Below, one piece after another: positions 4,430 to 46,898 of a stretch of 64,000 nucleotides of DNA. The DNA is taken from contig SVAG01000004.1 of NCBI GenBank assembly GCA_015059545.1, positions 1 through 64,000 of the forward strand, given 5' to 3'. A program made the translations under genes and the position numbers. The stretch's first letter is position 1. Each line of letters begins with the position of its first letter. Source of the DNA: Lactobacillales bacterium. GTDB lineage: Bacteria > Bacillota_I > Bacilli_A > RF39 > UBA660. The notes under the pieces were generated by a model, which saw nothing but the letters and a program-made list of their open reading frames with translations, had not been told where the DNA came from and searched no databases.

Positions 4430-5795
4430 TAAAATAGTAGAAAAGTTAAAAAATAAAAATATTGCAATACTAGGATTTGGTAAAGAAGGAAAATCAACTT
4501 ATAATTTTATAAGAAAACATTTACCTAATCAAAAAATAACAATATTAGATAAAAATGATATTTTAAAAAATAATGATTATTTAAAAAATGATAATAATTT
4601 GGAAATAATTGTAGGTGAAAATTATTTAAGTAATTTAGAAATTTATGATTTAATAATTAAATCCCCAGGTATAAGTTTTTATAATATTGATATAACAAAA
4701 ATAAAAGATAAAATATCATCACAATTAGAACTATTATTAGAAATCAATAATAAGAATATTATTGGTATTACAGGAACTAAAGGAAAAAGTACAACATCTT
4801 CATTAATATACAATATGATAAAAGATCAAACAGATAATGTATTTTTATTAGGAAATATAGGTAATCCAATATTTGATTATATTGATGAATTTAATGATGA
4901 AACATTATTAGTAATTGAAATGTCTAGTCATCAATTAGAATATATAAATTATAGTCCTCATATAGGTATTATACTTAATTTATTCCAAGATCATTTAGAT
5001 CATGCTGGAACTGTAGAAAACTATCATAATGCTAAAATGAATATGTTTAAATATCAAACTGAAAGTGATATAGCAATATATGATGGGCAAAATGATAATT
5101 TAAATAATTTAATAAAAATTAATAATTATAAATCAAATATGTATAATTTTAAATTAGAAGATAAAGATTCATATATCTATTCAATGAATAATTTAGTTTA
5201 TTTTAATAATGAAATAATTTATGATGGAAATAAACCAAGAAGTTTAATTGGAAGTCATAATTTAAAAAATATTATGGTTTGTTTATTAATATGTAAAATA
5301 TTAAATTTAGATATTAATAAAGCAATCAAATCAATTAATGAATTTAAACCTTTAGAACATAGACTTGAATTAGTAGGTACTTATAATAATATTACTTATT
5401 TTAATGATACAATAGCAACTATACCAGAAGCTACTATTAATGGTATAAATGGCTTAAAATGCGTTGATACATTAATATTTGGTGGAATGGATAGAAAGAT
5501 TGATTACAATGAATTTATAGATTATTTATATAGTTCTAATATTTCTAATTTAATAGGAATGCCAGAAACAGGATATACAATATGTAATATATTAAAAGAT
5601 AAAAATTCAGATAAAAATATATTTTTAGTAAGTACTTTAGATGAAGCAGTTGATATAGCAGATAAATATACAAAAAAAGATCATATTTGCTTATTATCTC
5701 CAGCAGCATCAAGTTATAATGAATTTAAAAATTATGAAGAAAAAGGTATGTATTATAAACAAATTATAAAGAAAAAATATAATAAAAAAGACTAA
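4422..5795 (+). CDS. murD2: MurD-family ligase, probably MurD2 (L-Glu adding)
   Basis: A cytoplasmic Mur ligase adding glutamate to UDP-MurNAc-L-Ala. The 457-residue protein has an N-terminal Rossmann segment (NIAILGFGKEGKST, 13-26), the ATP loop GTKGKSTT (118-125), the central QDHLDHAG motif, and the C-terminal FNDT and SPAASS motifs of MurD. It overlaps the murL-like gene by 8 bases. If the partner is MurL, this enzyme is expected to prefer L-Glu rather than D-Glu (inference). The stop codon lies inside a bidirectional terminator hairpin. Ordinary MurD remains the alternative if another D-Glu source exists in the genome. Confidence 0.85.
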   Translation: MYNKIVEKLKNKNIAILGFGKEGKSTYNFIRKHLPNQKITILDKNDILKNNDYLKNDNNLEIIVGENYLSNLEIYDLIIKSPGISFYNIDITKIKDKISSQLELLLEINNKNIIGITGTKGKSTTSSLIYNMIKDQTDNVFLLGNIGNPIFDYIDEFNDETLLVIEMSSHQLEYINYSPHIGIILNLFQDHLDHAGTVENYHNAKMNMFKYQTESDIAIYDGQNDNLNNLIKINNYKSNMYNFKLEDKDSYIYSMNNLVYFNNEIIYDGNKPRSLIGSHNLKNIMVCLLICKILNLDINKAIKSINEFKPLEHRLELVGTYNNITYFNDTIATIPEATINGINGLKCVDTLIFGGMDRKIDYNEFIDYLYSSNISNLIGMPETGYTICNILKDKNSDKNIFLVSTLDEAVDIADKYTKKDHICLLSPAASSYNEFKNYEEKGMYYKQIIKKKYNKKD

Positions 5796-20587: not shown

Positions 20588-21469
20588 ATGAATTACTACG
20601 ATAATATAAAACAAGAACTTATAAATAACGAAATATATAAGAAAGTAAAAGATTATAGTAAAAATAGAAATGATTTAGAAACATATTATAAAGTTGGTAA
20701 AATCCTTTTTGATGCAGGTAAACATTATGGAGATTCCATAATAAAAGAGTATTCTAAAAGATTGACAGAAGAGTTAGGAAAAGGATATTCAACTACAAAT
20801 CTTAAATATATGAGGCAATTTTATTTATTAATTGAAAAAGGTCAACCGATGGTTGACCAATTGACATGGAGTCATTATACAATATTGTTATCCATAAAAG
20901 ATGAAAATAAAAGAAATTATTATATAAATGAATGTATTAAAAATAATTTGAGTAAAAGAATTTTAATACAAAAAATTAAATTAAATGAATATGAAAGATT
21001 AGATGAAAATACTAAATTAAAATTGAATAATAAAGAGGAAATAAATATAGAAGATTTAATTAAAAATCCAATAATTATTAAGAATAAAGGATATGAAATA
21101 ATAAGTGAAAAAATATTAAAACAATTAATATTAGAAGATTTAGATAATTTTTTAACTGAATTAGGAGATAATTTTACATATGTCGGTAATGAATATAAAA
21201 TAAAAATAGGAGATAGATATAATTATATAGATTTACTTTTATTTAATATAGAGTTTAATTGTTATGTAGTTATAGAACTTAAAATAACAGAATTAAAAGC
21301 TGAATATATAGGTCAAATAAAAAAATATATGAATTATATAGATAAAAATATAAGAAAGATAAATATGAATCAAACAATAGGAATTATTATATGTAAAAAA
21401 GAAAATGATTTTGTAATGGAATACTGTAGTGATGATAGAATATTTTCATCAAAATATATATTAATTTAA
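20588..21469 (+). CDS. YhcG/DUF1016-type PD-(D/E)XK nuclease, copy 1
   Basis: A 293-residue protein. The N-terminal helical DUF1016 domain is at about 1-150 (ELGKGYSTTNLKYMRQFY, WSHYTILLSI). The C-terminal nuclease domain has IDLLLFN followed by YVVIELKI, the D...ExK signature, then IGQIKKYMNYID. Family members have been linked to mobile elements, restriction-like loci and recombination, but no function is settled. A close paralogue lies at 45990. A perfect inverted repeat is embedded at codons 85-91. It stands alone between a terminator and an ABC exporter; GGAGG precedes the ATG. Confidence 0.88.
   Translation: MNYYDNIKQELINNEIYKKVKDYSKNRNDLETYYKVGKILFDAGKHYGDSIIKEYSKRLTEELGKGYSTTNLKYMRQFYLLIEKGQPMVDQLTWSHYTILLSIKDENKRNYYINECIKNNLSKRILIQKIKLNEYERLDENTKLKLNNKEEINIEDLIKNPIIIKNKGYEIISEKILKQLILEDLDNFLTELGDNFTYVGNEYKIKIGDRYNYIDLLLFNIEFNCYVVIELKITELKAEYIGQIKKYMNYIDKNIRKINMNQTIGIIICKKENDFVMEYCSDDRIFSSKYILI
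20840..20858 (+). repeat. Embedded inverted repeat in DUF1016 copy 1
   Basis: GGTCAACC-GAT-GGTTGACC: perfect 8-base arms, 3-base loop, in frame as codons 85-91 (GQPMVDQ). The same position in the paralogue carries a different but equally perfect repeat at 46258-46274. Confidence 0.95.
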
Positions 21470-45989: not shown

Positions 45990-46898
45990 ATGGATTACTA
46001 TAGTAATATAAAGCAAGAATTAATAAATAATCAAATATATAAGAAAGTAAAAGATTATAGTAAAAATAGAAATGATTTAGAAACGTATTATAAAGTAGGT
46101 AAATTAATAGTAGAAGCGCAAGGTGGAGAGTCAAGAGCTAAATATGGAGATAATTTAATAAAAGATTATTCTAAAAGATTAACAAATGAACTTGGAAGAG
46201 GTTACAGTGTTACTAATTTAAAAAGAATGAGACAATTTTATTTAATTTGTGAAAAAAGTCCGACAATGTCGGACCAATTCAATTATAACATAACAATTTC
46301 GCATTTGGATTTATTATTATCTATAAGAGATGAATCCAAAAGAAATTATTATTTAAACTATTGCATTAAAAACAATTTATCAGTAAGAGAATTAAAAAAT
46401 AAAATAAAATTAAATGAATATGAAAGATTAGATAATAAAACAAAAGAAAAATTAATTAATAATCAAGAAAATAAAATAGAAGATTTTATAAAGAATCCTA
46501 TAATTATAAAAAATAGAGGATATCAAATAATAAGCGAGAAATTATTAAAATATTTAATATTAGAAGATATAGAAAATTTTTTAAAAGAGTTAGGTGATGG
46601 ATTTTGTTTTATAGGAAGTGAATATAAAATAAAAATAGGGGATAGATATAACTATATAGATTTACTTCTTTTTAATATAGAATTTAATTGTTATGTAGTA
46701 ATTGAATTAAAAATAACAGAATTAAAAAAAGAACATATAGGACAAATAAAAACTTATATGAATTATATAGATAAGAATATTAAAAAAATAAATATGGATA
46801 AAACAATAGGAATAATAATAGTCAAAAAAGAAAATAAATTTATTTTAGAATATGTCAGTGATAATAAAATATTTGTATCTAGATATATTACTATATAA
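45990..46898 (+). CDS. YhcG/DUF1016-type PD-(D/E)XK nuclease, copy 2
   Basis: A 302-residue paralogue of the protein at 20588. It shares most of the N-terminal domain (QELINNQIYKKVKDYSKNR, TNLKRMRQFYL) and the nuclease domain (YKIKIGDRYNYIDLLLFNIE, YVVIELKITELK). There is a short extra segment near residues 43-50 (AQGGESRA), and FNYNITISHLDLL replaces LTWSHYTILL after the embedded hairpin. The D...ExK catalytic signature is intact. The start follows GAGGTGATAAA. It lies alone between a terminator and ftsY. Its role is unknown; DNA cleavage or DNA-end processing is implied by the fold. Confidence 0.88.
   Translation: MDYYSNIKQELINNQIYKKVKDYSKNRNDLETYYKVGKLIVEAQGGESRAKYGDNLIKDYSKRLTNELGRGYSVTNLKRMRQFYLICEKSPTMSDQFNYNITISHLDLLLSIRDESKRNYYLNYCIKNNLSVRELKNKIKLNEYERLDNKTKEKLINNQENKIEDFIKNPIIIKNRGYQIISEKLLKYLILEDIENFLKELGDGFCFIGSEYKIKIGDRYNYIDLLLFNIEFNCYVVIELKITELKKEHIGQIKTYMNYIDKNIKKINMDKTIGIIIVKKENKFILEYVSDNKIFVSRYITI
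46257..46275 (+). repeat. Embedded inverted repeat in DUF1016 copy 2
   Basis: GTCCGAC-AAT-GTCGGAC at 46258-46274: perfect 7-base arms and a 3-base loop, in frame as codons 90-96 (SPTMSDQ). It occupies exactly the alignment position of the repeat at 20840-20858 and has the same total length of 19 in context. Confidence 0.95.

Follow-up and report, generated by a model that had tools for sequence, protein, structure and literature searches.

An in-gene palindrome is very probably the DNA site of the gene's own product in the DUF1016/YhcG family of predicted nucleases

The locus described here raises the question of why two paralogous genes for predicted nucleases should each carry, in the same place within the coding sequence, a perfect inverted repeat that is not the same in the two copies. 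The window, a stretch of 64,000 nucleotides from the genome of a Lactobacillales bacterium, contains both genes, and both belong to the DUF1016/YhcG family (PF17761 and PF06250; 105.8 and 120.3 bits for gene 1, 103.2 and 118.2 bits for gene 2, against Pfam cut-offs of 32.8 and 32.5 bits). The features are as follows, with the equivalent YhcG residues in brackets:

20588..21469, forward strand: DUF1016/YhcG gene 1, 293 aa (Pfam DUF1016_N E 2.4e-30, YhcG_C E 8.9e-35), with a predicted ParB/Noc-like DNA-binding domain and a predicted PD-(D/E)XK nuclease domain (AF2 model, pLDDT 95)
20792..20836, forward strand: gene 1 recognition-helix codons, residues 69-83, with T70, K73 and Y74 (85, 88, 89) as putative readers of offsets 5-9 (mutual information, structure model)
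20840..20858, no strand: palindrome 1, GGTCAACC-GAT-GGTTGACC, in codons 85-91 of gene 1, centre 20849 at the first base of the Met88 codon; predicted own-product site
20859-20862: conserved AATT directly after the right arm of palindrome 1
20867..20890, forward strand: gene 1 next-helix codons, residues 94-101, WSHYTILL, with S95 and T98 (142, 145) as putative readers of offsets 3 and 4 (mutual information, structure model)
20954..20980, forward strand: gene 1 helix 123-131 codons, with K123 and R124 (170, 171) as putative readers of offsets 3 and 2 (mutual information, structure model)
21098..21457, forward strand: gene 1 predicted PD-(D/E)XK nuclease domain, EndoMS/NucS-like, with E174, D215 and K232 conserved
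45990..46898, forward strand: DUF1016/YhcG gene 2, the paralogue, 302 aa (Pfam DUF1016_N E 1.6e-29, YhcG_C E 4e-34)
46212..46226, forward strand: gene 2 recognition-helix codons with T75, K78 and R79 (85, 88, 89)
46258..46274, no strand: palindrome 2, GTCCGAC-AAT-GTCGGAC, centre 46266 at the first base of the Met93 codon, followed by CAATT
46299..46310, forward strand: gene 2 codons S104 to D107 (142, 145)
46383..46388, forward strand: gene 2 codons V132 and R133 (170, 171)

A sequence-only reading of the window had drawn attention to the two repeats, and both proved to be real and to lie where it had placed them, each centred on a Met codon (M88, M93) and in the same alignment register. Its further statement that the sequence changes between the copies holds in part: the palindromes differ exactly at half-site offsets 3, 4 and 5, whereas offsets 2 and 6-9 are identical, and the change is thus not free. 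Each exact sequence is present once in the window, and the search for palindrome 1 elsewhere, which that reading had proposed, established that it is single-copy in the 1.19-Mb genome; its 17-bp core has no further genome match at one mismatch or fewer and one at two mismatches, and a loose site pattern was matched across this genome at a level near chance. The genome harbours five DUF1016/YhcG genes, each with its own version of the palindrome. On its contig C6 (260698-261926; L005/L006) two DUF1016 genes occur in tandem with different sites, their match to the recognition code described below being 8/8 and 6/8.

DUF1016 genes were gathered by homology from relatives, other phyla, plasmids, phages and E. 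coli, and 350 full-length DUF1016/YhcG genes of this uneven sample were used for statistics. The longest perfect arm with a loop of at least 3 was sought in the variable loop, whose alignment is fixed only at its two flanking anchors, FY and W. The mean arm was 8.4 bp, as compared to 4.2 bp in synonymous-codon shuffles and 4.2 bp in other intervals of the same genes (n=350), which upholds the proposal that selection acts on the palindrome as nucleic acid, and an arm of at least 7 bp was present in 264/350 genes as against 3.8% of shuffles. At the level of the family a chance origin of the palindrome is excluded. Of the 264 genes with such an arm, 257 have the midpoint of the repeat on codon position 1. 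With imperfect arms counted, an inverted repeat of gene-specific arm sequence is found in the same loop of 322/350 genes, and many of the 28 genes (of 350) without a clear repeat retain a decayed version in the same place; the repeat of E. coli K-12 yhcG has 15-bp arms. Position preferences are symmetric, with a CA-N-TG centre, mostly A/T at offset 5 and AATT at offsets 10-13, and the variable offsets of the half-site are 3, 4 and 6-9. To judge by these preferences, the profile is the picture of a DNA site for a dimeric protein in which some of the bases are specific to each gene.

Variation in the arrangement of the sites was also observed. Proteobacterial DUF1016 genes (including L101 and L100) have an expanded loop with 2-4 tandem sites, mostly 39 nt (13 codons) apart, and E. 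coli O157 L228 is shorter by 78 nt, or two 39-nt units. E. coli yhcG is often disrupted by IS elements or deletions (L223, L224, L225, L226), the break lying within the third palindrome in E. coli B (L223) and F5656C1 (L224), and a 'chimera' of E. coli yhcG genes proposed from BLAST matches broken at the third palindrome was found, in the strains inspected, to represent truncations or deletions beside IS or transposase genes. The DUF1016 ORF of L051 carries, in addition to the usual site, a perfect palindrome with 19-bp arms, TCATTATCAGATTTTAATG-T-CATTAAAATCTGATAATGA, directly past the WSHY codons. In a subfamily of the QLVAQLPW type (L024, L026, L103, L104) the palindrome of some members is centred between two bases or is displaced, as in TTGTGCAAC-TG-GTTGCACAA, which suggests a different dimer spacing. 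The DUF1016 frames of G166 (L117) and G268 contain three in-frame TGA codons each, and these genomes perhaps read TGA as Trp.

What the variable bases follow was established by computing the mutual information of the bases in the half-site with every well-occupied column of the protein that lies outside the repeat, in YhcG numbering. Seven residues outside the repeat covary with the bases at offsets 2-9 in a regular order: offset 2 is coupled to residue 171, offset 3 to 170 and 142, offset 4 to 145, offsets 5 and 6 to 89, offset 7 to 85, and offsets 8 and 9 to 88, while for the conserved offsets 10-14 no comparable partner was found among the well-occupied columns. Contingency tables assigned G2 to Arg171; T3 to Val170, G3 to Arg/Lys170 and C3 to Thr170; G4 to Arg/Lys145, C4 to Val145 and T4 to Leu/Ile145; G5 to Arg/Lys89 and T5 to Tyr/Asn/Leu/Gln89; C7 to Arg85 and G7 to Gln/Lys85; and A8 to Trp/Tyr/Phe88, C8 to Lys88 and G8 to Glu88. 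Read as contacts, these pairings are chemically sensible: Arg and Lys go with G, Arg85 and Lys88 with C (a G on the opposite strand), Glu88 with G (a C on the opposite strand), the aromatic residues at 88 with A (a T on the opposite strand) and Val170 with T, so that in general terms the putative code is Arg-G, Glu-C and aliphatic or aromatic-T.

The coupling survived the controls applied to it. With bases permuted only inside clusters of 50% protein identity, z values of 5 to 17 remained, and held-out prediction, in which only training genes of at most 60% identity were used, reached an accuracy of 0.80-0.92 at offsets 3, 4, 5 and 7, much better than with random columns. These two results rule out that the code stems from common descent. 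At four-fold degenerate third codon positions, with the amino acid fixed, the base follows residues 88, 89, 85 and 145 (z 7.7, 14.8, 10.9 and 6.3), and selection on the loop at the protein level is therefore insufficient; this effect and the synonymous shuffles rule out a protein-level coincidence as the cause of the palindrome. The codon alignment of homologues that the sequence-only reading had asked for thus returned the covariation above protein-level expectation that it had envisaged, with bases and residues coupled even at synonymous positions. Of the functions it had listed, the nuclease's own recognition site is the one supported, as the base at each coupled half-site offset tracks residues of the gene's own protein that lie outside the repeat, and its self-versus-foreign mark stays in contention as a rival for the use made of the site.

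When 163 sites were ranked by the code for each gene, 82.5% of the genes had their own site among the best 5%. Trained without the genome of the window and without close relatives, the code predicted the half-site GGTTGACC for gene 1, correct at 8/8 offsets, and was correct at 7/8 for gene 2. The two window proteins differ at residues 170 (K123 vs V132), 145 (T98 vs D107) and 89 (Y74 vs R79), which are the putative readers of precisely the offsets, 3, 4 and 5, that distinguish the two palindromes. Residues 85 (T) and 88 (K) are shared by the proteins, as are offsets 7 and 8 by the sites. In E. coli, the first site changes from G7C8 to C7A8 between two yhcG alleles with K85/R88 and R85/W88, as the code predicts, the difference between these alleles being concentrated in one block with the helix and the sites. 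Some of the tandem sites of E. coli misfit the resident protein at offsets 7-9, and a Salmonella contig (L102) fits the code at offset 7 and misfits it at offset 8.

The position of the coupled residues in the protein is consistent with direct reading of the DNA. In AlphaFold2 models (pLDDT 95) the residues encoded by the palindrome lie in the loop that joins the recognition helix (69-83) to the helix 94-101. The 13 best PDB matches of the N-terminal model in Foldseek were all ParB or Noc, with weak E values of 0.39-4.4. The HTH_ParB profile matched 11/14 members (best E 2.3e-5) and 22/63 members (best E 1.1e-6), at scores below the curated cut-off where bits were given (16.8 and 13.6 vs 22.6), and PDB 6sdk (ParB/Spo0J) was matched by profile at E 0.0015, or 0.095 with the N-terminal profile. 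In co-crystals of ParB and Noc the recognition helix and two later helices contact the palindrome, position 1 being touched by the recognition-helix region and position 6 by one of the later helices (PMC7383237); the coupled residues of DUF1016 likewise lie on the recognition helix and the two helices that follow, and the order of contacts in ParB/Noc matches the order of offsets and residues in DUF1016. The N-terminal domain is thus well supported as a remote, ParB/Noc-like reading domain on the strength of these models, in a family whose 2005 description gave it neither a match nor an assigned role (PMC1189080). DUF1016 proteins are set apart from ParB proper, in that their sites differ from the parS consensus TGTTNCACGTGAAACA and from one another, and no Pfam match to the N-terminal CTP-binding ParB domain was obtained among the members scanned. 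For the C-terminal half EndoMS/NucS was the best PDB fold match (E 6e-6) and the catalytic E-D-(D/E)-K is kept in 344/350 genes; in residues and modelled fold DUF1016/YhcG thereby conforms to a PD-(D/E)XK enzyme and is a predicted nuclease. The family also matches profiles of PADLOC entry PDC-S02 (best E 3.3e-66), and is in that respect a candidate defence system.

The site, its code, its register and the domain family are well supported. Because of the code, the held-out prediction, the match of the window genes and the ParB/Noc-like domain, the palindrome is very probably a double-stranded DNA site for the gene's own DUF1016 product, and we infer that this product binds it in the cell. The protein would bind as a two-fold symmetric dimer, in which the outer part of the half-site (offsets 5-9) is read by the recognition helix through YhcG residues 85, 88 and 89, and the inner part (offsets 2-4) by two other helices through residues 142 and 145 and residues 170 and 171. 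The site itself lies in the codons of the loop that separates the recognition helix from the one after it. As the site lies in codons between the gene's own helices, reader and site would be inherited as one piece and change together. Taken as a whole this explanation is likely, with self-control, as the use of the site, its more tentative part. The protein, bound some 300 nt into its own ORF, would stall RNA polymerase and so cap the level of a dangerous nuclease; such self-limitation would be active from the gene's entry into a new host and would provide each paralogue with a separate address. The site lies at a median of 303 nt downstream of the start codon and is thus suited to a transcription roadblock, and the own site in the own ORF that a self-roadblock calls for is identified by the recognition code only. 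Negative self-control may quite possibly be the main use of the palindrome, although we propose this tentatively. None of 127 same-genome paralogue pairs shares a half-site where some 3 were expected, which is suggestive of insulation between paralogues. The remoteness of the ParB match, the genes with no clear repeat and the misfits to the code in E. coli and Salmonella count against the explanation, as does the scarcity of sites a short way upstream, where classical autoregulation would place them: a second upstream operator was not found as a general rule, as at least 13/16 matches occurred in 4/315 genes vs 10/3,150 control comparisons, and three of these 4 are convincing by eye (L041 at -44, L218 at -26, L345 at -64). 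At L288 three copies of the palindrome GCATCGTTGCARTGCAACGATGC occur approximately 680, 858 and 1023 nt upstream of the DUF1016 ORF.

The main rival to self-control is self-targeted cleavage, in which the protein would bind the palindrome so as to cut there or nearby, its targets being incoming copies, rival alleles or empty sites with the palindrome, and its outcome copy control, self-versus-foreign marking or homing-like spread. The retained catalytic residues, the EndoMS/NucS-like fold and the PADLOC listing are all in its favour, as is the yhcG locus of E. coli. In E. coli BCE049 (L420, 2501-2528) the gltD-nanQ gap contains AATTCGCCAGACAGTGTCTGGCGAATT, identical at 27/27 positions to the first in-gene yhcG site of other strains; it is also present in L421 and, with one change at the centre, in L422, all of these strains lacking yhcG, and where yhcG is present it directly adjoins the position of AATTCGCCAGACAGTGTCTGGCGAATT. 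In strains with yhcG a further palindrome of the same type, variable between strains, lies approximately 30 nt past the stop codon and before nanQ (L101, ~4969-4997, and L227-L230). However, a resident gene would cut itself unless protected, and a partner gene was not identified; beyond the gene itself such sites are scarce, the flanks around the loci (739 kb in all) containing 40 long palindromes of which few are site-like, and the site is unique in the genome of the window. We consider self-targeted cleavage unlikely, though it is a serious contender. That the in-gene site serves as a self-address, the nuclease cutting or excluding other DNA with the same address, is a little more doubtful again; the paralogue pairs without a shared half-site and the identical site retained by yhcG-less E. 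coli are consistent with it and are not proof. If it were true, address and reader would diversify fast as one cassette and DUF1016 would represent self-recognition among mobile genes.

It is improbable that the bound site is an antidote that keeps the nuclease inactive on its own gene, with loss of the gene freeing it to kill as a one-gene addiction module: this would account for a site inside the ORF, inseparable from the toxin, and for DUF1016 genes on plasmids and phages, but a single site per cell holds one dimer only. A regulatory hairpin in the mRNA, also among the functions first listed, has very little to commend it, for although the arms are complementary and vary together, the stems contain 32 G·T mismatches as against 50 of A·C, so that there is no sign of the G-U pairs that selection on RNA should strongly favour, and base identity is set by predicted DNA-contact residues. 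Equally far-fetched is a functionless likeness of the arms through arm-copying mutation or cruciform extrusion, since arm matches that often extend far past the conserved core, to as much as 16 bp, and the block replacement in E. coli alleles leave it a possible part in the simultaneous change of both arms, but the fixed codon register, the CANTG centre, the AATT boxes and bases dictated, synonymous positions included, by residues far outside the repeat are unaccounted for by structure or blind copying.

Own-product binding at an in-gene site can be set beside several known systems, and no description of own-site palindromes in DUF1016/YhcG genes was found in the open-access papers searched. 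The closest in mode of action is C.Kpn2I, a DNA-binding protein with a site inside its own ORF, for which an in-ORF transcription roadblock of its own gene has been measured and which guards the level of a nuclease system; it is, however, a stand-alone controller of a restriction-modification operon, whereas DUF1016 has a ParB-like domain fused to a nuclease, and the accessible part of that report describes no family-wide residue-base code (PMC6237814). ParB and Noc on parS and NBS likewise read a palindrome as a two-fold dimer with a helix-turn-helix and two helices, the recognition helix taking outer bases and a later helix an inner base, and few residues switch specificity (PMC7383237). They possess an N-terminal CTP-binding domain and near-constant sites, whereas DUF1016 has a nuclease in place of the former and a different site in most genes. 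In B. subtilis one parS lies inside the parB gene (spo0J). LacI at O3 similarly limits its own transcription by an operator roadblock but is, as far as the available extract of the report goes, a single non-nuclease gene with a fixed operator (PMC3711431). Perfect inverted repeats within coding sequence are also known from Nematomorpha mitochondria, in unrelated genes and, in the available section of that description, with no mention of a protein recognition code (PMC6649704).

Nearly every DUF1016/YhcG gene thus very probably carries the binding site of its own product within its coding sequence, in a family that is spread from E. coli K-12 to plasmids and phages and across phyla. The N-terminal domain thereby gains a role, and a DNA site can be predicted for every member. 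In this gene architecture the site is embedded among the codons of the very domain that is predicted to read it, which would make specificity swappable as a cassette. Hundreds of readers of the ParB-like fold, each paired with its site, would further constitute a natural library that is useful for learning protein-DNA recognition, and the function of a common defence candidate becomes directly testable in K-12.
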